DNA of 10,354 bases, taken from positions 1 to 10,354 of the forward strand of contig JAAXVX010000030.1 of NCBI GenBank assembly GCA_013335275.1, written 5' to 3'. Position numbers and translations under genes: made by a program. This document shows positions 1 through 9,035 of the stretch, piece after piece (the first letter of the stretch is position 1; the number at the start of each line of letters is the position of its first letter). Below the pieces are notes generated by a model. That model did not search any database. It had not been told where the DNA came from and saw nothing but the letters and a program-made list of their open reading frames with translations. Source of the stretch: Bacteroidales bacterium. GTDB lineage: Bacteria; Bacteroidota; Bacteroidia; Bacteroidales; UBA932.

Positions 1-585
1 CATTACGTGAATCGGGGAGTGGTTCATCATTAGCGGGCGCACAATAACAAGATATAAAGCATATACGAAGCAGCTGATGAGCACTATGAGATTTCCTTCA
101 AGTGTGCCGGTCTGGTTAAATCCTCCACTCTTTGCAGTGTAAAGTATAAGTGCAGCTCCGGCCATCCCGATAAAAACCCCCGAAGCTTTCTTAAAAGTGA
201 CGTGCTCCTTAATTATGAGAGCCGCAAAAATCATTGTTATTATAGGAGTTATGGTTATAATAAGCGAAGCATCAACGGGAGATGTTTTCGCAAGACCGGC
301 CAAAAACGAAAGCTGGTTTAACGTAGTTCCAAAAATTCCACTAAGAAATAAAAGAACATGTTCCCTGGGTGAAAATGATTTCCCGTCTTTCTTTATAATA
401 AACGAGAGGAGAAGAAATGAAATAAAGGCAAATGTTATTCTAAGCTGGGACAGTCCAAACGGGTCTATCCACCTTGGAGTGATTTCTCTCGAAACAGGAA
501 GGTTAATAGCAAAAAGGGTATTTGCAGCAACAATAAGCAATATTCCCTTTGTTCTGTCCGAAAGACCGGAGTACCAGTTATTCAT
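1..585 (-). CDS. EamA/DMT-family transporter, partial (C-terminal part beyond left edge)
   Basis: Partial integral membrane protein of the drug/metabolite transporter superfamily; 195 codons are present and the frame is open to base 1. Seen: a short polar N-terminus, then hydrophobic segments at about residues 13-30, 48-63, 77-97, 105-125, 135-150 and 164-183. The first EamA repeat spans about residues 13-150 and includes the typical ending 'IIKEHVTFKKASG'. The second repeat begins near residue 163 ('EGNLIVLISCFVYALYLV', then 'RPLM'). Members export or import amino acids, nucleotides or other small metabolites; the substrate cannot be read here. The ATG at 585 overlaps the end of the SulP gene by 8 bases (ATGAATAA), so translation is probably coupled. 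A GGAG lies about 12 bases upstream. Being last in a sulfur-linked gene set, it could export an amino-acid-like sulfonate, but that is only inference. Confidence 0.88.
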   Translation of the reverse strand, partial: MNNWYSGLSDRTKGILLIVAANTLFAINLPVSREITPRWIDPFGLSQLRITFAFISFLLLSFIIKKDGKSFSPREHVLLFLSGIFGTTLNQLSFLAGLAKTSPVDASLIITITPIITMIFAALIIKEHVTFKKASGVFIGMAGAALILYTAKSGGFNQTGTLEGNLIVLISCFVYALYLVIVRPLMMNHSPIHVM

Positions 586-2314
586 TCCTGTGCTTTATTT
601 GGTGCAACTCCTGCTCTCTCACAATTTCTGCAGCTTTTGCAAGTGCCAGCTGGATATGCGGGAAAATATACTCTCTTCCGATTTCATCTGCAAACCCCGA
701 CTTAGAAAGAGTCTCAAGCACATTTTCACTAACTCCGGAAAGAATAACATGAATTTTTTCCTTTCTGGATCTTTTCCATAAATTTCGGAGGTTATTAAGT
801 CCGGTAGAATCCATAAAAGGTACCTTCCTCATTCGTATAACCCTAACTTTCAATATATGGTGTGATGTAACATCCAGTTCGTCCAGCTTGTTTGCGAGCC
901 CGAAAAAGAAAGGACCGTCAATTTCGTAGACTTCAACTCCCTTGGGAATATCCAGAATTTCAATATCACTGGTATTTTCATCGTTTTCCGTTCCCGATAA
1001 AAATGGTTGCCCTATGACTGTGATGGTAGATGTCTCTGAAACTCGTTTTACAAACAGAATAATGGCAAGTACTACACCAACCTCAATGGCAACAGTTAAA
1101 TCGACAATTACTGTCAGAAAGAATGTAAGCAGCAAAACAGCAACATCGGCTCTGTGCCCTTTCATCAGATATTTGAATGTTCTCCATTCACTCATATTGT
1201 AGGCAACAATTATCAGAATAGCGGCAAGACACGATAGCGGTATATATACCGCATATGGCATTAAAAACAAAAATATAATTATCAGGACAATTGCGTGAAT
1301 GATACCGGCAACGGGAGTCTTTCCGCCATTATTAATATTTGCCATAGTTCTGGCAATAGCACCGGTAGCCGGAATACCTCCAAAAAAAGGTGTAACGATA
1401 TTTGCTATTCCCTGGCCTATAAGTTCTGTGTTTGAGTCGTGTTTTTTCCCGGTAACCCCGTCTGCGACCATTGCCGATAGTAAGGACTCAATTGCGCAAA
1501 GCAATGCGATTGTAATAGCTGGCTGAAAAAGCAGCTTAATTGCCTCAAAATCAATTTTTGGAGTTACTGGTTTTGGAAGCGGTATTCCTCCGGCAAGTTC
1601 GGGAAATTTACTGCCGATAGTGGCAAATTCAATACCCATATAGCGGGAAAGAATAAGAGCAGCTATGGTTCCGAATATAATTGCAATAAGGGAGCCCGGA
1701 ACTTTGGTCGTAATTTTTGGCCAGAATATTATTATGAACAGGCAAAATAATCCAAGGGCAGCTTCCCAGAAATTAATAGTTGATATGTTCTGAAAATAGC
1801 TTATCCATTTAGGAATAAACTCAGAAGGGACTTCAGTTATTGTGAGACCTAATAAGTCCTTTATTTGTGTTGAGAAGATAACAAGAGCAATTCCACTGGT
1901 AAAACCAACAACAATAGGATAGGGGATAAACCGGATGATATTGCCGAGTTTGAAAACTCCCATTGCCACAAGCATTATTCCGGCAAGTACTGTTGCTATT
2001 ATTAGCCCGGACATACCGTACTCGGATACAATTCCAAAAACAATTACAATGAATGCTCCGGTTGGTCCTCCTATCAGAAAGTTGGACCCTCCAAAAAGTG
2101 AAGTCAGCAAACCTGCAACAATTGCTGTTATCAGGCCTTGCTGCGGAGTCACTCCGGATGCTATACCAAATGCAATGGCAAGTGGCAGGGCTATTATTCC
2201 TACAATAATTCCGGCAATAAGATCGGATGTGAATTTTTTCTTGTTATAGCCGCTGTCTTTTCTGAAAAGGCCGAAAAATTTTGGCCGAAAGACCGAAGAT
2301 ATCTGAAAATCCAT
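578..2314 (-). CDS. SulP-family inorganic anion transporter with STAS domain
   Basis: Secondary membrane transporter of the SulP/SLC26 family (sulfate, bicarbonate or other anions), 578 aa, a normal bacterial length. Seen: the transporter domain starts with 'DLIAGIIVGIIALPLAIAFG' (31-50), followed by 'GGPTGAF' (82-88), 'PYPIVVGFTSGIA' (131-143) and 'GGIPATGAIARTMANINNGG' (312-331), all typical of the family. The core runs to about residue 423. A STAS domain fills about 459-567, with the characteristic 'MDSTG' at 501-505. There is no fused carbonic anhydrase. The ATG at 2314 is preferred over an in-frame TTG at 2350 because the TTG lies upstream of a good candidate -7 element and homology begins after the ATG. 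The substrate is unresolved: sulfate or sulfite would fit the neighbouring cysteate synthase, but bicarbonate and dicarboxylate carriers belong to the same family. Confidence 0.93.
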   Translation of the reverse strand: MDFQISSVFRPKFFGLFRKDSGYNKKKFTSDLIAGIIVGIIALPLAIAFGIASGVTPQQGLITAIVAGLLTSLFGGSNFLIGGPTGAFIVIVFGIVSEYGMSGLIIATVLAGIMLVAMGVFKLGNIIRFIPYPIVVGFTSGIALVIFSTQIKDLLGLTITEVPSEFIPKWISYFQNISTINFWEAALGLFCLFIIIFWPKITTKVPGSLIAIIFGTIAALILSRYMGIEFATIGSKFPELAGGIPLPKPVTPKIDFEAIKLLFQPAITIALLCAIESLLSAMVADGVTGKKHDSNTELIGQGIANIVTPFFGGIPATGAIARTMANINNGGKTPVAGIIHAIVLIIIFLFLMPYAVYIPLSCLAAILIIVAYNMSEWRTFKYLMKGHRADVAVLLLTFFLTVIVDLTVAIEVGVVLAIILFVKRVSETSTITVIGQPFLSGTENDENTSDIEILDIPKGVEVYEIDGPFFFGLANKLDELDVTSHHILKVRVIRMRKVPFMDSTGLNNLRNLWKRSRKEKIHVILSGVSENVLETLSKSGFADEIGREYIFPHIQLALAKAAEIVREQELHQIKHRNE

Positions 2315-2338
2315 TATATAAACTTTTGATTGAGGGCG

Positions 2339-2369
2339 CAAAAGTAACAATTATAATCTACCCAATCAA
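2339..2369 (-). promoter_or_regulatory. Candidate Bacteroidota-type promoter for the SulP gene
   Basis: Read on the minus strand, TTG (2369-2367), then exactly 20 bases, then TACTTTTG (2346-2339). This matches the Bacteroidota vegetative pattern TTTG-N19-21-TAnnTTTG except for the first T. The -33 half lies inside the last codons of the cysteate synthase gene. The -7 half ends 24 bases before the ATG at 2314, leaving room for a short leader. It suggests that SulP and the following transporter can be expressed apart from the upstream genes. Motif match only; AT-rich DNA gives chance hits. Confidence 0.5.
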
Positions 2370-3644
2370 CTTAAACAATTCCTCAGCCTTTTTGATAATC
2401 TCTTTAGTGTCAGATTGACTGCTTATTATAGCGTCTGGCTTAAGGTAATAAAGTTTATTTTCCGAACGAAACCTCTTTTCTCCTCCACCGGTAATATTGA
2501 GCATTAAAATCTTTTCACGTTCTACTTTACCGGAATTTATACTTTTAATCATGCCGGAGAGAGCTATTCCCGCAGCAGGGTGTATATCAATTCCTTCTGT
2601 TTGTTCAAACAGAGTACAGGCTTTCTCCAGTTCTCCGTTGTCTGCAATTTCTATATCTCCGTTCGTATCAGACAAGGCATCAAACAAACCTCCGGGAACA
2701 GAGTAGGGAGGTCTTCGGTTTGATAGAACTTTTGCCGCAATGAGCAATGCTTTTTGTCTTGATTCGTCTTCATCTGCAGGAAGGAGGTCGCGGCTGGAGA
2801 CTTTCCATGCATCATACATAGGGGTAAACGGGATATTCTGAGAAGGCACGAGTGTCATTTTATGGTTCCCGTATCTTCCGTCTTCAATCAGCCTCAAATT
2901 GGCCTCCCATGCTGCAATAGTACCTGTCCCGCTTCCTATCGCCTGAAAGTAATAGTCCGGAATACGTCCGATTGTTGTTGCTGCAGACAGAACTGTTGTT
3001 CCCATTCCATCTCTTCTCGCTACATTTTTTGCACCGCCTTCTTCAAAGAACATTCCGGACAAACAAATTTTGTTTGCAAGGTCAATTGCGTCGTAATAAT
3101 CGGAACCTGTTGGTGTTGATATCAGTTTTACACAATTGTTTATTGGAGTGTCAAACCACAGAGCATCCAAATTGTCCTCAGGAACGACAATCAAAAGAGG
3201 AATATTGTTTTCTGAACAGACTTTAGCAAAAGCCCGCGAAGTATTTCCTGCAGAAGCTACAACAATGACTCCCTTCTGTTCCGGTTTTAATCTTGCGCAA
3301 ACAGAATATGCCTCAGTCTCTTTAAAAGAACATGTATCCATCTTTGCTCCAATTTCCGGCCAGTAACCGCTAAAAGTTATATACAGGTTTTCCAGATCCA
3401 GCACTTTAGCTAATTTTTCACTTTTATATGTAACAGGAAATGAGGAATTTGCAAGTTGTCTGCTGATAGGCAGCCAGTCCGAAAATTTATAGAAACCATG
3501 GGAATCGTCTTTCAGATTGAGTTGCTTATTATTATAAACCGCTCTTATCAATGATGGTTTGCTGTAATTAGGGTCTGAAAGCAGCCATCCTGTGTCGTCA
3601 AAAATATCGCCGGTAGCGATGTTTTGTAATTTATATTTTGTCAT
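2358..3644 (-). CDS. Cysteate synthase-like PLP enzyme (threonine synthase fold)
   Basis: Likely cytosolic PLP enzyme that makes L-cysteate from O-phospho-L-serine and sulfite; 428 aa from the ATG at 3644. Seen: 'KSEKLAK..DLENLYITFSGYWPE' (74-97), the PLP-lysine motif 'TCSFKE' with K108, the substrate-binding loop 'SAGNTSRAFA' (131-140), 'EGGAKNVARRDGMGT' (202-216), the phosphate-binding glycine loop 'GSGTG' (237-241), 'RPPYSVPGG' (311-319) and 'NITGGG' (383-388). These match from memory the Methanosarcina cysteate synthase over almost the full length, including the unusual FSGYWPE and RPPYS motifs, and fit it better than ordinary threonine synthase. The N-terminus (1-55) lacks the zinc-ribbon-like cysteines that I recall in the archaeal enzyme. 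In Bacteroidota, cysteate feeds sulfonolipid (capnine-type) synthesis; in methanogens it feeds coenzyme M. No acyltransferase or CoM genes are in view. A threonine synthase paralogue of other specificity remains possible. Confidence 0.82.
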   Translation of the reverse strand: MTKYKLQNIATGDIFDDTGWLLSDPNYSKPSLIRAVYNNKQLNLKDDSHGFYKFSDWLPISRQLANSSFPVTYKSEKLAKVLDLENLYITFSGYWPEIGAKMDTCSFKETEAYSVCARLKPEQKGVIVVASAGNTSRAFAKVCSENNIPLLIVVPEDNLDALWFDTPINNCVKLISTPTGSDYYDAIDLANKICLSGMFFEEGGAKNVARRDGMGTTVLSAATTIGRIPDYYFQAIGSGTGTIAAWEANLRLIEDGRYGNHKMTLVPSQNIPFTPMYDAWKVSSRDLLPADEDESRQKALLIAAKVLSNRRPPYSVPGGLFDALSDTNGDIEIADNGELEKACTLFEQTEGIDIHPAAGIALSGMIKSINSGKVEREKILMLNITGGGEKRFRSENKLYYLKPDAIISSQSDTKEIIKKAEELFKLIG

Positions 3645-3650
3645 ATAGTA

Positions 3651-3681
3651 CAAAAATATCTATTTTCGAATTGTCCTGCAA
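3651..3681 (-). promoter_or_regulatory. Candidate Bacteroidota-type promoter for the cysteate synthase gene
   Basis: Read on the minus strand, ATTG (TTG at 3681-3679), exactly 20 bases, then TATTTTTG (3658-3651), a good match to TTTG-N19-21-TAnnTTTG. It sits in the 52-base gap after the membrane Hdr-like gene. The -7 box ends only 6 bases before the ATG at 3644, so a transcript from here would be almost leaderless. If so, cysteate synthase can be made without the Hdr module. No hairpin with a T-run terminator was seen in the gap, so readthrough from the Hdr genes is also likely. Confidence 0.45.
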
Positions 3682-3696
3682 TACTATTATTATCTT

Positions 3697-5490
3697 TTAT
3701 ACCATCTGCTCTGCAACAATCTGTGCAATATCTGCAGTAGGTTTGCCGTTAATGTTTTTAAAGCTTTTATAACACAACGGACAGGCAGTTACCAATTCAT
3801 CCGGATTGTTCTCAAAAAGAGTGGCAAGAGCTGCTTTTGTAATCCCGTTACGTTCCTCTTTATCAAGCGAAAGACTGCCAAGACTTCCTCCGCAGCAATG
3901 GCTCTTTCCCCTCTCTTCCGAAGCAAATCTTAATTCTCCGGCCTTCATTAAAATCTCTCTGGGCTGTTCAAAAATTCCGGAACCTCTCCCAAGGTCGCAA
4001 GGGTCGTGAAAAACGAAGCTCTTGCCGGATTTGTTTATTGCTATTTTCCCTTCATTAAGGAGGCGGTTTATATATTCTGTATGATGGACAACTTCAATTC
4101 CGGGCAAATCATATTCTTCCCTGAAAACCTTGTAGCAAATAGGGCAGGAGAGCAAAAGAGTTTTAGCTCCGGAATTGATAATTGTCTGCCTGTTTTTTTC
4201 AATAAGCTCTTTCGCAGAATATGTGTCTCCCGAAAGCATTAAAGGCCTTCCACAGCAAATTGAACCGTCTTTGTCCATAAATGAAAACTGTGTACCGGAT
4301 TTTTGCAGAATTTTAAAAAGAGAGTTGTAAATAACAGGAGTTAGATGGGTCATGCAACCTGCATAGTAAAGAACATCTGATTTATTTACATTTGTGTGAA
4401 TTTCTGACAGATATGCCATTCGGAGTCTCTTTTCGGAAATTTCCTCTTCTCTTTTTAATACTTTAAGTTTGCAGCTGTCTATTTCTACCGGACACATCTC
4501 AACGCATCTCCCGCACATAAGGCATTTGTCTGCATGATTCATTGAACCCGGCAACCTGCGGCGCATCAATCTCAGGTAATATACCGAAGTAAACTTTGAA
4601 TTTTCACTTTTTACTGCCATAGGGCATGCATCAATACAAATACCGCAGCTTGAGCAGGAATATATTTCACTTTCGGCATAGCCATCTCTTGAAGATGTTG
4701 CCCTGATACCTGAGTTTCTCATCCAGATAAGAAATATTTCTGTAGGAATATGCATGTATCTGGAAAATGGGAGGGCAAACAAAAATGCTCCCAGAGTGAG
4801 TGAGTATGCCCACCATACAGGCTGGATGAGACTTTCATTTGTTGCAAATGTATTGAATACTCTGTTGATTGTTATTGTTAAAAAACTTCCGCCGCTTATT
4901 CCGGCAGTAAAACTTTCGGCAAAGAGCCTAAGGGGAAATATGAGCCAAAGCGAATATAATGCAATCTTATCACCGGTTCTTAGTTTGGTTGTTCTCTTCA
5001 TACCTACAATGGCAGAGCGGAATCTTTTATAAATGGCAATTCCCACACCCGAAAGAACTATTAAAAGAAACAGGTCCATAAGGAAAAAGAAAAAATCTCC
5101 TCTCAGGGTTTCGTGAGTTTTCATTACAAAATACCGGAAGAAAACAGGATAGTAGAGAACTCCTAACCTTTGAGGGGTATAAAGCATAACCTCAATATGG
5201 CCAATGAATATGAGCATGAACCATCCAAAGGCAATGCTTGCATGCATATAGCCAAGCCTTATGTTTCTTTTGAAAATCTTAAGGTGCAAAAGACAATCGA
5301 CAATTATGTCCCGGAAAGTTTTAAAAATTGCAAAGGAGAATGTGTGTTTAAGCAGTTTCATTTTTTCTTCTGCCGAAAGCTTTGCAATAATTTTAAATCC
5401 TCCCACTGAAAGGTAGAGAATAATAAAAACCATTCCCAGAGTAAACGGGATGACAAATGGGTCAAATGCAAAAACTATACGCTCTCTCAT
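3697..5490 (-). CDS. Membrane HdrE-HdrD-like fusion: cytochrome b domain, two [4Fe-4S] clusters, two CCG domains
   Basis: Probable quinone-reactive, catalytic membrane subunit of an Hdr-like complex, 597 aa. Seen in order: an N-terminal membrane part with hydrophobic segments near 12-37, 51-69, 85-104, 133-154, 177-196 and 225-244, resembling the NarI/HdrE cytochrome b fold, with possible haem-ligand histidines H83, H98 and H247; two ferredoxin motifs, C279/C282/C285/C289 and C323/C326/C329/C333; then two complete CCG (cysteine-rich) motifs, C379-C412C413-C449xxC452 and C498-C532C533-C570xxC573. Complete CCG motifs bind the non-cubane [4Fe-4S] clusters that cleave disulfides in HdrB/HdrD. The gene follows the small ferredoxin with a 1-base gap. 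Relatives with this layout include HdrDE, DsrMK and Hmc subunits; the exact substrate (a thiol/disulfide or a sulfur carrier) cannot be read. GlpC/LutA-type dehydrogenase subunits are less likely given the HdrA and HdrB neighbours. Confidence 0.88.
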   Translation of the reverse strand: MRERIVFAFDPFVIPFTLGMVFIILYLSVGGFKIIAKLSAEEKMKLLKHTFSFAIFKTFRDIIVDCLLHLKIFKRNIRLGYMHASIAFGWFMLIFIGHIEVMLYTPQRLGVLYYPVFFRYFVMKTHETLRGDFFFFLMDLFLLIVLSGVGIAIYKRFRSAIVGMKRTTKLRTGDKIALYSLWLIFPLRLFAESFTAGISGGSFLTITINRVFNTFATNESLIQPVWWAYSLTLGAFLFALPFSRYMHIPTEIFLIWMRNSGIRATSSRDGYAESEIYSCSSCGICIDACPMAVKSENSKFTSVYYLRLMRRRLPGSMNHADKCLMCGRCVEMCPVEIDSCKLKVLKREEEISEKRLRMAYLSEIHTNVNKSDVLYYAGCMTHLTPVIYNSLFKILQKSGTQFSFMDKDGSICCGRPLMLSGDTYSAKELIEKNRQTIINSGAKTLLLSCPICYKVFREEYDLPGIEVVHHTEYINRLLNEGKIAINKSGKSFVFHDPCDLGRGSGIFEQPREILMKAGELRFASEERGKSHCCGGSLGSLSLDKEERNGITKAALATLFENNPDELVTACPLCYKSFKNINGKPTADIAQIVAEQMV

Positions 5491-5491
5491 A

Positions 5492-5821
5492 TTACCCTTT
5501 ATTTAATTTTCTTTTAATCAAAACTATTGCGTGTCTTGTGTTAATGCCGCGCGGACATACAAGAGTACATTTTCCGCACATCATACAACCTTCCAGAAGA
5601 GCAACGGCTTCTGTATCCATTCCTACTTCCAGCAGATGCAATGCCTTTCGAAAGCTGATTTTGTCGAAAACTCCTGCACTGCAGGAAGCGACACAAGAAC
5701 CACAAGCTATGCAAGTTGAAATACCCGGTTCGCCGGCAAGAATTTCCCTGAAAAGCGAGTTGTCCGAAACATCCAGATCAATCTGGGAACTGGGTGAAAG
5801 CCGGTATCCGAAGCGGTTCAT
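5492..5821 (-). CDS. Small HdrC-like ferredoxin with two [4Fe-4S] clusters
   Basis: Electron-transfer protein of 109 aa, soluble, presumably docking on the membrane subunit encoded next. Seen: two four-cysteine [4Fe-4S] motifs, C37/C40/C43/C47 ('CIACGSCVASC') and C79/C82/C85/C89-P ('CMMCGKCTLVCP'), separated by a 31-residue helical stretch as in HdrC. The first motif lacks the usual proline after its last cysteine (S48 instead). The ATG at 5821 overlaps the stop of the flavoprotein gene by 4 bases (ATGA), and the next gene starts 1 base after its stop, so the three are almost surely co-translated. It is the second HdrC homologue in the module, which suggests two separate electron branches meeting at the flavoprotein (inference). 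Confidence 0.87.
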   Translation of the reverse strand: MNRFGYRLSPSSQIDLDVSDNSLFREILAGEPGISTCIACGSCVASCSAGVFDKISFRKALHLLEVGMDTEAVALLEGCMMCGKCTLVCPRGINTRHAIVLIKRKLNKG

Positions 5822-6837
5822 TGGAGGGCTTTGTTTGAAAGGTAATTGTGGATAGCAAGAGCAGAAGCCCTGGCTTCGCTTAATGTTTCGGGAATAGTTT
5901 TTGGGCCGGTGACTGCACCTGCCAGAAAAATACCCTCTTTCCCGCTGTCATACATCTTTGTTATAGAATCAGAGGGCTCAATAAATCCATCTTCTGCCCT
6001 GTTTAAAGAAAGAATTCCGGAAATTTCCCCAATAGAATTATTGCTTATCATTCCGGTCATCAGGACGAGAAGGTCAAGTGACACTTTTAATGGTTTGGAC
6101 GAAAGTGTATCCTCTGCCTTAATTACAACTTTGCCGGTAAAATCTTCCGATACTTCAGAAACTCTGCCTCTTATAAATCTTACCCTGTATTTATTTTGTG
6201 CTTTCAGATAGAGATCCTCGTACTTTCTTCCAAACATTCTCAAATCCATATAGAAACAGAACACTTCTGAATCCGGAAACTTCTCCCTGATTTCACATGC
6301 CTGTTTAACAGCTGTCACGCAACACACTTTTGAACACTGTCTGTTGCAGATTTTCTCATCTCTCGATCCTACGCAGTGGACAAAACCTACTTTAGAAGGA
6401 TTATTAATATTTACTCCTTTCCCTGTTTTAAACCATTTTTCCAAATCGGAACTTGTGATTACACCATTGTAAATACCATAGCCGTATTCCTCTTTTTTTT
6501 CTGCAGGGAAAAGTGAAAATCCTGCGCATACTAAAATTGCAGAAACAATCTCTTCTTTTCCTCCGGAAAGCTTAACACGGAAATTGTTCCCCTCTTTATC
6601 CGCTTTCTCGACAATAGTATTAAGATATACCGGAGTGTGTTCTACCGGCTTGATTAATTTATACAATACTGTTTCGGCACTCTCTCCTTCGGGGAAAAGC
6701 CTGTCCCATTTGGCAAGATGTCCACCCAGTGTATCGTCTTTCTCAACAATTACAGGCTTATAGCCAAGGAGGTTCAGCTGATTTGCTGCTTCGAGCCCGG
6801 CAGGCCCGCCTCCGATTATTAATACCCTGTCTGTCAT
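5818..6837 (-). CDS. Short HdrA-like FAD oxidoreductase with a [4Fe-4S] site
   Basis: FAD-dependent electron-transfer subunit of the Hdr-like complex, 339 aa, cytosolic. Seen: an N-terminal Rossmann nucleotide-binding motif 'IIGGGPAGLEAA' (7-18) followed by the acidic 'VEKDDTLGG' (31-39); the HdrA signature 'CVGSRD' (155-160) leading into a cysteine set C155, C164, C168, C172, C173 that would hold the conserved HdrA [4Fe-4S] cluster; and a C-terminal FAD-contact segment 'GIFLAGAVTGPKTIPETLSE' (302-321), the hallmark of HdrA/QmoA. It lacks the extra N- and C-terminal ferredoxin domains of methanogen HdrA (about 650 aa) and is nearer in size to sHdrA and QmoA. The start ATG overlaps the HdrB-like stop by 4 bases. 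Whether it bifurcates electrons cannot be decided from sequence reading; the missing ferredoxin domains argue for simple electron transfer. Confidence 0.9.
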   Translation of the reverse strand: MTDRVLIIGGGPAGLEAANQLNLLGYKPVIVEKDDTLGGHLAKWDRLFPEGESAETVLYKLIKPVEHTPVYLNTIVEKADKEGNNFRVKLSGGKEEIVSAILVCAGFSLFPAEKKEEYGYGIYNGVITSSDLEKWFKTGKGVNINNPSKVGFVHCVGSRDEKICNRQCSKVCCVTAVKQACEIREKFPDSEVFCFYMDLRMFGRKYEDLYLKAQNKYRVRFIRGRVSEVSEDFTGKVVIKAEDTLSSKPLKVSLDLLVLMTGMISNNSIGEISGILSLNRAEDGFIEPSDSITKMYDSGKEGIFLAGAVTGPKTIPETLSEARASALAIHNYLSNKALQ

Positions 6838-7850
6838 ATTTTGTATTTATCCTCTTTGTTGTATGTAATCCCGATCTTATCCAGCAGCGGTTCAACTGCA
6901 GTCTGGTGCATTTGTAAACCGAGGTCCCACGGGTCGTACCCAAGAACAAGACCGGCAACCTCTTCATAAGTAAATACGGGAATTCCTTTTGAGTCCGCAC
7001 CATATGTCTTTCCTTCAAGCTCCTCAATTACATATTGCCAGCGATCCAGAAAATAAGGACATCCAGGGCAGTTTGTGATTATCATATCAGGCTTGAAAGG
7101 AGCCATGGATTCAAATTTCTTGTGGGTATTCGATAATGAGTAACCTCTGTTCGCCTGGACAAGATATTGCCTGAACCCGAAACCGCAGCAGTGCCTTCTC
7201 TCCGGGTAATCAATTACAGTTCCTCCCCACGCTTCTGCCATCCCTGTAAGAACATACGGATATTCAGCACCACCAACACCCTTTGAAGGAAACATTTTAG
7301 AATAGTGACAGCCAATATGTTCAACAACTCTGAGCGGTTCTCCTGTAGTCTTGTTCACCAGCCGGTATTTCCCGCTTTCAAGTATCTTATTTCTCAGTTT
7401 ATAAATTACATCACTGGCATGAACAACGCTTTTGGGTATTTTAAATTCTCTTTTTGATGCTTCCCACAGAAGCTCCCTTATTTTAGCTTCCAATTCAGGA
7501 TAGTGAAACCATGTATTGATTATTTCGTTATATATTCCAAAAGAGGTAATACAGGAGCAAACATAATTTTCATATCCGGCTTCGGTCATCAGCGCAAACT
7601 GGCGTGCCACAATTGTCATTAATGTTTCCTGAGGGATTGAGTCACTGTGATATGCAATACCTCCACAGGTTGTATGGTGAGGTGTTTCAAAAAAGTCAAG
7701 TCCCAGTCTGTCTCTGACGATATCTAAAAATACTTTTTCTGAAGCAGGAAAGAAGTTCTGGCGTATACAGCTTCTTACATAAAAATAATGATCATCCGGT
7801 ATATCCTTTTGGTATTCACTCCAGATTTTCTTTTTCCCTTCTACAATCAT
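6834..7850 (-). CDS. HdrB-like CCG-domain protein with an altered first cysteine motif
   Basis: Soluble subunit of the Hdr-like complex, 338 aa. Seen: two cysteine-rich (CCG) regions. The C-terminal one is complete: C181, C221C222-G223, C261xxC264. The N-terminal one is altered: C28, then 'TTCGG' with T61 in place of the first cysteine of the pair (C62 remains), then 'VCSC' giving C98 and C100, a CxC instead of CxxC. In methanogen HdrB both motifs bind non-cubane [4Fe-4S] clusters, so the first site here probably holds a different cluster or none. The C-terminus (about 285-338) is rich in aromatic and charged residues. The gene starts 6 bases after the HdrC-like gene and overlaps HdrA by 4 bases. 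Family assignment is firm; substrate is unknown. It could serve as a partner for a sulfur-carrier protein as proposed for sHdrB1. Confidence 0.87.
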   Translation of the reverse strand: MIVEGKKKIWSEYQKDIPDDHYFYVRSCIRQNFFPASEKVFLDIVRDRLGLDFFETPHHTTCGGIAYHSDSIPQETLMTIVARQFALMTEAGYENYVCSCITSFGIYNEIINTWFHYPELEAKIRELLWEASKREFKIPKSVVHASDVIYKLRNKILESGKYRLVNKTTGEPLRVVEHIGCHYSKMFPSKGVGGAEYPYVLTGMAEAWGGTVIDYPERRHCCGFGFRQYLVQANRGYSLSNTHKKFESMAPFKPDMIITNCPGCPYFLDRWQYVIEELEGKTYGADSKGIPVFTYEEVAGLVLGYDPWDLGLQMHQTAVEPLLDKIGITYNKEDKYKI

Positions 7851-7856
7851 AATTTC

Positions 7857-8549
7857 TTAAATGTAATGTTCTTCTGAGTTTATCGTAAATATTTGTCTGC
7901 AATATTCCTCGTCACTCAACCCCAGTTCTTTGGCTCGTTTTTTTGAAATTGTTTCGATTTTTTCCATACGCTCTGTTGCTCCGGTTACATCAAATATTCT
8001 TTTGAGTTCATCTAAATCGCTTTGAGGAATTTTTCTCAGAATTCCCGGTCCCTCTCCATCAAGATTTGAGCCGACTCTTTTATGAACGGCATCAAGATTA
8101 TCTTCAATCCATTTTCCAACAGGTCCGTTTTCCGGATGGTCGGAATAATGAAAAGTTCTTGGATACACGCAATATCCATAGTTAAGGATATTGCCGCACA
8201 AAGCTCTGTTTAGAACTAATTGCTGTCGTCCTTTTTCAGAATCAATGAAGTATCCTAGTTCCTGGGAGAGATTTCTTAATGCCTGAATAATAAGCCCCGG
8301 GCCATTCTTTCTGGGACATCTTGTAATGCAGGACATACATTGTCCGCAATACCAAATAGTTTCACTCCTTAGCAGTTTCTCAATTTCGTCTTCGTCTTTT
8401 GACTGAACTGTATCAGTTATGATTCTGGGATCATATTTGTAAAATTCGGCAGCAGGGCAGATAGCCGTGCAGGTACCACAGTTTATACAGGCATTGAGAC
8501 CCTCTTTAAAGCGGTAGTCCTCCATCAGCCTGTCGTAAAGCATTCCCAT
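7857..8549 (-). CDS. HdrC-like iron-sulfur protein with long C-terminal extension
   Basis: Electron-transfer subunit of 230 aa that probably pairs with the HdrB-like protein encoded next. Seen: two [4Fe-4S] motifs, C21/C24/C27/C31-P ('CINCGTCTAICP') and C68/C71/C74/C78-P ('CGQCMSCITRCP'), the standard HdrC arrangement. About 150 residues follow, including 'ALCGNILNYGYCVYP' (116-130) and a charged helical end containing 'DELKRIFDVTGATERMEKIE' (179-198). From memory this tail resembles the HdrC1 proteins of sulfur-oxidiser sHdr clusters rather than short methanogen HdrC. ATG at 8549 was chosen; M3 at 8543 is an alternative. There is no clear Shine-Dalgarno. It lies 10 bases after the MarR gene, so the regulator and this gene share a transcript. 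Confidence 0.87.
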   Translation of the reverse strand: MGMLYDRLMEDYRFKEGLNACINCGTCTAICPAAEFYKYDPRIITDTVQSKDEDEIEKLLRSETIWYCGQCMSCITRCPRKNGPGLIIQALRNLSQELGYFIDSEKGRQQLVLNRALCGNILNYGYCVYPRTFHYSDHPENGPVGKWIEDNLDAVHKRVGSNLDGEGPGILRKIPQSDLDELKRIFDVTGATERMEKIETISKKRAKELGLSDEEYCRQIFTINSEEHYI

Positions 8550-8559
8550 TATTTAATTC

Positions 8560-9000
8560 TCATTTTTTCTCAAGCGAATCGATGTTTTTTGCCATCTTGT
8601 TGAGAACATTGATAAATATCAGTAACTCTTCCTTTGGGATATCCCGGATTATTCCATCGGTCGATTCCAAGGCAATCTTTGTTATTTCTTCCTTTATTAT
8701 TATTGCCCTTTCCGTAATGTGAATCTGGTTTAACCGGCGATCCGACTTGTCAGAAATTCTGTTTACCAGTCCTTTCTTTTCAAGAGCATCAATGAGTTTC
8801 GTTACGGAATTCTTATCTTTGAAAATAATATCTGCAATTTTTTGCTGAGATAAAACTCCTTCGTCCCAGAGAGTATCCATGACAAGGAATTGTTCAGGTG
8901 TAAGATTAAAACCGTGTTTCTGGAAAATGGAATTCATGTATTGCTTAAATTTGCAATGGACCAGATTTAGAAATACACCCACCTGTTTGTTAAGTATCAT
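8560..9000 (-). CDS. MarR-family transcriptional regulator
   Basis: Winged-helix DNA-binding regulator, 146 aa, typical family length, acting as a dimer. Seen: N-terminal dimerisation helix (about 5-28), 'LTPEQFLVMDTLWDEG' (33-48), the helix-turn-helix 'SQQKIADIIFKDKNSVTKLI' (51-70) with recognition helix about 63-76, the wing with 'DKSDRRLNQIHIT' (84-96), and the C-terminal dimerisation helices (97-146). It is the first gene of the leftward set, 10 bases before the Hdr module, and its promoter region contains an inverted repeat, so it probably controls itself and the downstream genes. The ligand is unknown. The only cysteine, C16 in the first helix, might sense oxidants or sulfur species, but it does not line up with the reactive cysteine of MgrA/OhrR as I recall them. 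Confidence 0.92.
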   Translation of the reverse strand: MILNKQVGVFLNLVHCKFKQYMNSIFQKHGFNLTPEQFLVMDTLWDEGVLSQQKIADIIFKDKNSVTKLIDALEKKGLVNRISDKSDRRLNQIHITERAIIIKEEITKIALESTDGIIRDIPKEELLIFINVLNKMAKNIDSLEKK

Positions 9001-9034
9001 ATTTGATAGTATATGCTTTTACTATTGCAAATAT
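8999..9034. promoter_or_regulatory. Imperfect inverted repeat, candidate MarR operator
   Basis: Left arm ATATTTG-ATAGTA (8999-9011), spacer of 8 bases, right arm TACTAT-TG-CAAATAT (9020-9034). The arms are complementary over 13 bases apart from a 2-base insertion in the right arm. The left arm reaches the start codon of the MarR gene, and the right arm overlaps a -7-like element (TATATTTG) on the minus strand. Position and symmetry fit an autoregulatory MarR site, though this is not shown. Confidence 0.6.
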
Positions 9035-9035
9035 A
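9028..9035 (-). promoter_or_regulatory. Candidate -7 element for the MarR-Hdr operon
   Basis: TATATTTG on the minus strand (9035-9028) matches the Bacteroidota -7 consensus TAnnTTTG. It lies 27 bases before the MarR start codon and inside the right arm of the inverted repeat, where a bound repressor would block it. No good TTTG/TTG stands 19-21 bases upstream, so the promoter may be weak or need an activator. Confidence 0.4.

Follow-up and report, generated by a model that had tools for sequence, protein, structure and literature searches.

We analyzed a stretch of 10,354 nucleotides from a Bacteroidales bacterium (contig JAAXVX010000030.1 of assembly GCA_013335275.1; called the window below), in which genes for a complex resembling heterodisulfide reductase (Hdr) stand directly before a gene for cysteate synthase (CysS). 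The window corresponds to a single complete contig from a genome of 1.92 Mb, which is split into 424 contigs and is 82.6% complete. All its genes lie on the minus strand and are closely packed, in the order marR, C1, B1, A, C2, D, cysS, sulP, and a partial eamA. The Hdr-like part begins with C1 (7857 to 8549), an HdrC-like protein with two 4Fe-4S clusters, and B1 (6834 to 7850), an HdrB-like protein with one complete and one altered CCG site. These are followed by A (5818 to 6837), a short HdrA-like FAD/4Fe-4S subunit of 339 amino acids (aa), by C2 (5492 to 5821), again HdrC-like with two 4Fe-4S clusters, and by D (3697 to 5490), which joins a membrane domain to two 4Fe-4S motifs and two CCG domains with complete sites and replaces the sHdrB2 subunit of the sulfur-oxidizing sHdr systems. 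CysS is encoded at 2358 to 3653. Overlaps of 4 bases at B1/A and at A/C2 fit an operon. The initial annotation had described a cysteate synthase directly downstream of an Hdr-like complex, with a SulP carrier behind it, and the genes are confirmed at these places. Numbers beginning with L and G denote the loci and genomes with which the window was compared.

The CysS protein scored 469.7 bits against TIGR03844, over the curated cut-off of 324.9, and its best solved relative is 9k3c, named cysteate synthase, with which it is colinear over residues 4 to 427 (E = 3e-173). Judged by these matches, the window's CysS is predicted to be a true cysteate synthase, an enzyme that makes cysteate out of O-phosphoserine and sulfite.

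We then analyzed the Hdr-like subunits, using alignments of 48 to 52 sequences per subunit, the window's own included, and found that the cluster-binding cysteines were invariant in all of them. The two HdrC-like proteins kept their eight cluster cysteines in 48/48 (C1) and 49/49 (C2) sequences, B1 kept C181, C221, C222, C261, and C264 plus C28, C62, and C100 in 50/50, and A kept C155, C168, C172, and C173 in 51/51. The cysteine ligands of D were present in 52/52 sequences, as were His 69, 83, and 247, and His 98 was present in 51/52. Mean column identity was 85% for B1 (19 rows) and 67% for D (26 rows, from another row set). Residues 5 to 328 of A aligned with residues 4 to 335 of 6tjr, which we take to be sHdrA, at 223 bits. 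The best PDB match of D, over its ferredoxin and CCG part, was the iron-sulfur-binding reductase 9ojn, presumably of the EtfD type. B1 matched methanogen HdrB at 72 to 111 bits only. Protein-database searches, run with B1 and with the initial portion of D, gave thousands of matches; the named ones among the best 120 came from Bacteroidota and so offered no comparison outside that phylum. In four genomes (G424, G505, G568, and G586) the only B1 sits away from D, and these B1 proteins are 63 to 64% identical. Paralogous C1-B1 pairs were seen in L092 (8028 to 9715), L093 (9105 to 10858), and L095 (7770 to 9552), and in L096 (4757 to 6082) B1 alone was labelled; the neighbors in L093, L095, and L096 are NifX-like, Mrp-like, or CoA-disulfide-reductase-like (identified partly by eye), and L092 has none such.

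A scan for CysS-encoding stretches found 90, of which 80 loci were kept, all by title from Bacteroidota or, in L021, from an uncultured bacterium. Hdr genes lay directly upstream of CysS in 39 of the 80 loci, and a gene for a channel of the FNT family did so in 7. All five subunits were seen in 31 of the 39 Hdr-CysS loci; five others start inside the cluster, and three, which belong to one lineage (L009, L015, and L040), lack C1 and B1 beside A-C2-D-CysS. An even draw across the class contained CysS in 4/395 genomes, too few for adjacency counts. In a set of 199 genomes from the window's family, CysS, D, and B1 were called at E values of 1e-60 or better; this set shares genomes with the 80 loci, and the two series of counts are not additive. 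CysS was found in 105, D in 92, and B1 in 91 of the 199 genomes. D and CysS occurred together in 78 genomes and were adjacent on the same strand in 70 of these, with 21 to 133 bp (median, 58 bp) between the matched stretches. In the remaining eight, the two genes were on the same strand 3.5 to 3.7 kb apart (two genomes), 121 kb apart (one), or on separate contigs (five). The co-occurrence of D with CysS gave a P value of 7e-18 in a Fisher test, a figure that still includes kinship between the genomes. The adjacency, which recurs in differing chromosomal settings, is thus conserved rather than unique to the genome of the initial annotation, and the 70/78 adjacent cases rule out a chance neighborhood.

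Two further arrangements were observed. A gene for an exchanger-like membrane protein of about 320 to 330 aa (recognized by eye) stands directly beside a lone CysS gene in L098 (9263 to 10255), L119 (5624 to 6586), and L121 (5468 to 6460), and a gene family of similar appearance, again judged by eye, is found ahead of Hdr in numerous rumen loci. Where Hdr genes occur without CysS (g210; L083, 4621 to 13907, and L085, 5572 to 14857), the flanking genes encode a class I aminotransferase-like protein, a long-chain acyl-CoA ligase, and an acyltransferase-like protein; these products were tested in L083 only.

In the sulfonolipid pathway outlined in PMC11211663 and PMC9304779, cysteate synthase is followed by cysteate-C-fatty acyltransferase (CFAT) and then by an NADPH-dependent 3-ketocapnine reductase. 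The initial annotation had pointed to a cysteate acyltransferase as a gene worth looking for, and a search with the enzyme of L087 (E of 1e-75 or better) found CFAT in 118 of the 199 family genomes, among them 101/105 genomes with CysS and 87/92 with D. The five D genomes without CFAT are all less than 90% complete (77 to 89%). Co-occurrence of D with CFAT gave a Fisher P value of 3e-23, again with kinship still in the figure. In L103 and L104, the genes form the single cluster VOC-CFAT-SDR-C1-B1-A-C2-D-CysS, the SDR gene being identified by Pfam in both loci and the VOC gene in L103. The CFAT of L103 scored 542 bits against 7u7h, which we take to be the SulA structure, 540 bits against 28eh, whose entry name is cysteate-C-fatty acyltransferase, and 232 bits against serine palmitoyltransferase. 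SDR, a putative 3-ketocapnine reductase, is encoded within the CFAT cluster of L103, L104, L105, and L114, and its gene adjoins CFAT in 18 of 20 further loci. The neighborhood thus combines the first three steps of the pathway with one redox complex, and the sole redox need left unassigned in these steps is sulfite.

The link of Hdr with sulfonolipid genes extends to genomes with no CysS over the TIGR03844 cut-off. In two of them, G438 (L087) and G395 (L086), the Hdr genes (without a labelled C1 in L087) are accompanied by a gene for an alpha-oxoamine synthase. The L087 protein scored 455 bits against 7u7h, 429 against 28eh, and 185 against serine palmitoyltransferase, and the L086 copy, which is ended by the contig edge, is 75% identical to it. 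Both loci also encode a VOC-like protein and a threonine/cysteate-synthase-like pyridoxal phosphate (PLP) enzyme. This second PLP family, encoded beside CFAT at 2946 to 4202 in L087, 8622 to 9941 in L086, and 7377 to 8600 in L114, lies below the TIGR03844 cut-off where scored and is probably a further cysteate synthase. Fourteen D genomes lack a TIGR03844 CysS; ten of them encode the second enzyme. Its gene adjoins CFAT in nine of these; in G400 it is on another contig than CFAT, and the enzyme is 41% identical. It was not found in G401, G515, G575, and G580, the last three of which are less than 90% complete, with D meeting a contig end in G580.

Two features of the CFAT surroundings may be added. 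A protein of the VOC/glyoxalase superfamily, 355 to 366 aa long (415 aa as called in L086), is encoded in the CFAT cluster of L087 (10455 to 11528), L103 (13000 to 14079), L104 (3104 to 4171), L114 (5009 to 6109), and L086 (6535 to 7782); it was called by Pfam in L103, by similarity to the L087 protein in L104 and L114, and by eye in L086, and it is a candidate for an extra step of sulfonolipid synthesis. In 20/20 loci (L133 to L152), a gyrB-like gene (by eye) precedes CFAT, either immediately or with one gene in between, a stable site for sulfonolipid genes.

We found a replacement of the Hdr genes within the window's own genus. All nine genomes of this genus that have CysS and lack D (L101 and L106 to L113) carry one FNT gene directly before CysS. 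The gene ahead of it is marR in seven of the nine and carB in L113, and L110 ends there with its contig. CFAT is present in all nine genomes and B1 in none. Two of the FNT genes were tested; both are over the family cut-off of TIGR00790 and below that of the FocA equivalog TIGR04060 (229 and 241 of 290 bits). A search of 30 genomes for FNT was positive in 7, and among the 13 with D only in G401. When 87 CysS proteins were placed on a quick tree, four changes were required to account for the FNT label, and well-supported branches force at least two of them. These changes fall within a clade of 18 rows (SH-aLRT 96), among which are seven Hdr and three reduced-Hdr rows. The module state ahead of CysS has therefore changed more than once. 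A single channel can replace a five-subunit complex if both deliver one small anion and, because CysS uses sulfite, the exchange points to sulfite supply. We regard it as the strongest argument for such a role: the FocA-like channel of the sister species would import sulfite in place of Hdr.

The same results bear on a proposal, also made in the initial annotation, that the Hdr module has as its disulfide substrate a thiol derived from cysteate and resembling coenzyme M. Homology to Hdr speaks for it, and CysS also serves coenzyme M synthesis in methanogens. However, CFAT, which would use the cysteate, is present in 101/105 CysS genomes, and an anion channel in place of Hdr makes little sense for a disulfide reductase. 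Our comparisons brought nothing in favor of this thiol, ComDE not being among the genes searched for, and we consider it very improbable.

The first gene of the unit, at 8560 to 9000 on the minus strand, encodes a MarR-family regulator (PF01047, 57 bits), which is kept in Hdr-type and FNT-type loci. A candidate MarR operator, a dyad of the AGTAA-N6-TTACT type, lies at 9006 to 9025 (no strand assigned), 18 to 33 bp before marR, and beside it, at 9028 to 9035 on the minus strand, is a TAnnTTTG box, presumably the Bacteroidetes -7 element. The box was seen in 31/31 distinct marR upstream regions. The dyad that follows it (AGTAA-N4..9-TTACT) has 9 or 10 of its 10 positions in 22 of the 31, versus 4.6% of shuffles; the motif was defined on the same related sequences in which it was counted, so the figure describes rather than tests it. 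An operator shared with CFAT was considered and rejected, as no dyad was found upstream of CFAT/SDR in the 20 loci scanned. The regulated unit thus appears to be sulfite supply plus CysS, and the MarR regulator would probably control the supply module together with CysS.

Common regulation might by itself explain the linkage, with the complex and CysS both answering, for instance, sulfide, sulfite, or thiol stress through MarR and with no substrate passed between them. That marR and the dyad head the unit agrees with this, as does the separation of Hdr from CysS in 8/78 genomes. However, CFAT, free of the dyad in the 20 loci, still accompanies D in 87/92 genomes, L103 and L104 hold CFAT, SDR, Hdr, and CysS in single clusters, and the channel stands exactly where the complex would be, a state that has changed more than once on the CysS tree. 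We therefore judge regulation alone to be an improbable explanation.

Two transport genes close the window. SulP (578 to 2350, minus strand) is an anion carrier with a STAS domain (PF00916, 304 bits), over the cut-off of the sulP subfamily model and below that of the DauA model, and an EamA/DMT exporter gene (1 to 585, minus strand) is partial at the contig end and falls below the cut-offs of the 2A78 and YddG models. Both genes stand behind CysS in Hdr and in FNT loci of the window's genus, though not in every one. Their cargo is possibly a sulfur oxyanion for uptake, and cysteate or a sulfonate for export.

We looked for other sources of sulfite. ATP sulfurylase was found in 0/30 genomes searched, 13 of them with D (controls, 5/14 positive). 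The initial annotation would have taken dissimilatory sulfite reduction genes that already explain the sulfite as a refutation, as it would a unique adjacency; siroheme sulfite/nitrite reductase was found in 0/32 genomes, 15 with D (controls, 11/14 positive), so neither refutation was borne out. A CysD/CysH domain was present in 43/199 family genomes and 12/92 D genomes, in some cases in frames much longer than CysD or CysH should be. As the source of sulfite, neither sulfate assimilation nor siroheme reductases nor a Qmo/adenosine phosphosulfate (APS) route is supported. The last would have SulP import sulfate, APS form, and the Hdr proteins pass menaquinol electrons to an APS reductase that yields sulfite; membrane-linked Hdr proteins do adjoin a sulfate-permease-like carrier here, but with ATP sulfurylase not found in the 30 genomes and the CysD/CysH domain in so few D genomes, we give this route hardly any credence, AprA not being among the genes searched for.

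On balance, and with modest confidence, we favor the view that the Hdr-like proteins form an sHdr-like complex, anchored in the membrane, which supplies CysS with intracellular sulfite for cysteate and hence for sulfonolipids. Gene content, linkage, co-occurrence, conserved ligands, the channel swap, and the failure to find the usual sulfite routes are observed; the reaction and its direction, the sulfur carrier, the link to quinone, and sulfite as the cargo of the channel are inferred. C1-B1-A-C2-D would most likely oxidize a persulfide, stemming from sulfide or from a cysteine desulfurase, to sulfite (R-S-S- + 3 H2O -> R-S- + HSO3- + four electrons), and its FAD and 4Fe-4S clusters would carry the electrons to the membrane domain of D, where menaquinone would receive them and pass them on to fumarate. 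The potential of HSO3-/HS- is about -0.12 V and that of menaquinone about -0.07 V, so oxidation to sulfite with a fumarate sink would be allowed. CFAT would then condense the cysteate with a fatty acid, and reduction by SDR would give capnine-type sulfonolipids.

The redox sense might also be the reverse. The complex would then draw on menaquinol (together with proton motive force) to cleave thiosulfate or an S-sulfo thiol (R-S-SO3-), an analogue of a heterodisulfide, reductively, giving sulfite and either a thiol or sulfide. The hydrophobic segments and conserved histidines of D are consistent with this, as is the fact that HdrB CCG clusters reduce disulfides; thiosulfate import by SulP is conceivable, and the linkage and the channel swap are explained equally well. 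However, thiosulfate reduction by menaquinol is uphill, the gene order and the short A resemble sulfur-oxidizing Hdr clusters, and inspection of the neighboring genes by eye showed no enzyme of thiosulfate metabolism, for which no search was made. We hold the reductive direction to be unlikely, if worth keeping in mind.

Several observations weigh against sulfite production by persulfide oxidation, or against its generality. The membrane domain of D, which has four hydrophobic segments, has no Pfam match, and its likeness to the NarI profile is weak and local (probability, 3%), confined to a PFSR..HI stretch that resembles the last heme helix of NarI, and the match was rejected. The one FNT gene product compared with solved structures is nearest to formate channels, and a strong dyad is present in only 3/6 FNT-type marR upstream regions. 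Neither module precedes CysS in 34 of the 80 loci, 3 of which start within 0.5 kb of CysS at contig ends. D is missing from 27/105 CysS genomes; 9 of the 27 have the channel beside CysS, and for the other 18, which lack D and have no known FNT neighbor of CysS, no sulfite source was found. Eight of these 18 were searched for FNT, and one was positive, on another contig than CysS; the 18 genomes count against a universal rule of sulfite supply. A real exception is G401 (completeness, 99%), where Hdr, an FNT gene, and a CFAT-like gene at 58% are found but cysteate synthase of either type is not. CFAT was not found in the window's own genome, incomplete as it is, and is present in the near twin G442, whose D is 97% identical to the window's. 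Finally, LbpA, a lipoate-binding protein with two conserved cysteines that is encoded beside hdr genes (PMC6067878), was not found in 30 genomes, each of which, including those without Hdr, has one GCV_H protein; of the 13 GCV_H proteins of Hdr genomes, the 12 examined in full have 0 or 1 cysteine versus the two of LbpA.

The initial annotation knew of no described operon joining these functions, and indeed the open-access PubMed Central literature yields no paper pairing sulfonolipid with heterodisulfide; the work there that pairs cysteate synthase with heterodisulfide reductase concerns, by title, methanogens or methane-oxidizing archaea. A paper that brings together sulfonolipid and sulfite is concerned with sulfoquinovose and has no bearing here (PMC13232883). 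Capnine lipids are mentioned in anaerobic isolates (PMC11129491), and an effect of Bacteroidota sulfonolipids on host immunity has been reported (PMC11211663). The sulfite source for sulfonolipids in strict anaerobes without sulfate assimilation is not stated in the literature examined. If our proposal is true, the complex names that source and is a genomic marker for sulfide-using producers, an sHdr-like machine operates without LbpA and for biosynthesis, fermenting Bacteroidales could make sulfonate from sulfide, and some producers are predicted to depend on outside sulfite through an FNT channel.

We compared the cluster with known systems. The sHdr clusters are described as hdrC1B1A-hyp-hdrC2B2, always with LbpA, and as oxidizing persulfide sulfur to sulfite (PMC6067878, PMC12423496). 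The window and 31/39 loci share the order C1-B1-A-C2-B2 with shdrC1B1AHC2B2 of Hyphomicrobium denitrificans, B2 being represented here by the CCG portion of D. Further likenesses are the presence of two parts of the HdrC type and two of the HdrB type, a short A that lacks extra domains and matches 6tjr over its full length, and the proposed product, sulfite. Unlike sHdr, the window's cluster has no hyp (sHdrH) gene, A and C2 overlapping by 4 bases, its B2 is fused to membrane and ferredoxin domains in D, and it is linked to genes for lipid synthesis. With LbpA not found and hyp missing, we rejected membership in sHdr, although the cluster may work like it. Of what the initial annotation had proposed, the sHdr-type label is thus not supported, whereas the idea of a sulfite supply for cysteate and sulfonolipids gains strong, if indirect, support from CFAT in 87/92 D genomes, from the L103/L104 cluster, from the gene sets of L086 and L087, and from the channel swap.

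A plasmid of Picosynechococcus sp. PCC 7003 (L131, 7113 to 12853) carries a C1-B1-A-C2-B2 cluster, to which the window's B1 and C1 are 40.5% and 46.6% identical, which ends in a gene for an FAD protein with weak similarity to sulfide:quinone reductase; the annotation of that 19-kb stretch includes no lipoate-binding protein. An Acidithiobacillus match from the plasmid collection, tried as a true sHdr reference, turned out to be no sHdr cluster.

The cluster differs from methanogen HdrABC in that B1 (136 of 450 bits), A (252 of 1,100), C1 (83 of 270), and also C2 score below the equivalog cut-offs. As in QmoABC and the membrane Hdr of sulfate reducers, the Hdr-type subunits are connected with the membrane and presumably with menaquinone, but A is single and short, C1 scores 43 of 300 bits with the QmoC model, and ATP sulfurylase was not found in the 30 genomes. 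D resembles the EtfD-type reductase 9ojn, its best PDB match over the ferredoxin and CCG part, but stops at about 600 residues, and the window's unit has no ETF gene. The enzymes of the sulfonolipid pathway of Chryseobacterium gleum and Alistipes finegoldii, or their homologues, are encoded here as well, whereas the main texts on that pathway do not contain the word sulfite (PMC11211663, PMC9304779), and no Hdr complex was noticed there. The gene that replaces Hdr belongs with the FNT channels (FocA, NirC, and HSC) by the TIGR00790 cut-off and, in the two genes tested, is nearest to FocA; unlike FocA, it is below the equivalog cut-off and located between marR and CysS. Set against these systems, we tentatively propose that the complex represents a new kind of Hdr, which would convert sulfur at the sulfide level to sulfite anaerobically, with a link to menaquinone and without LbpA, in the service of a membrane lipid, and which would be interchangeable in evolution with a sulfite channel; this wider proposition we hold to be possible, a little short of even.

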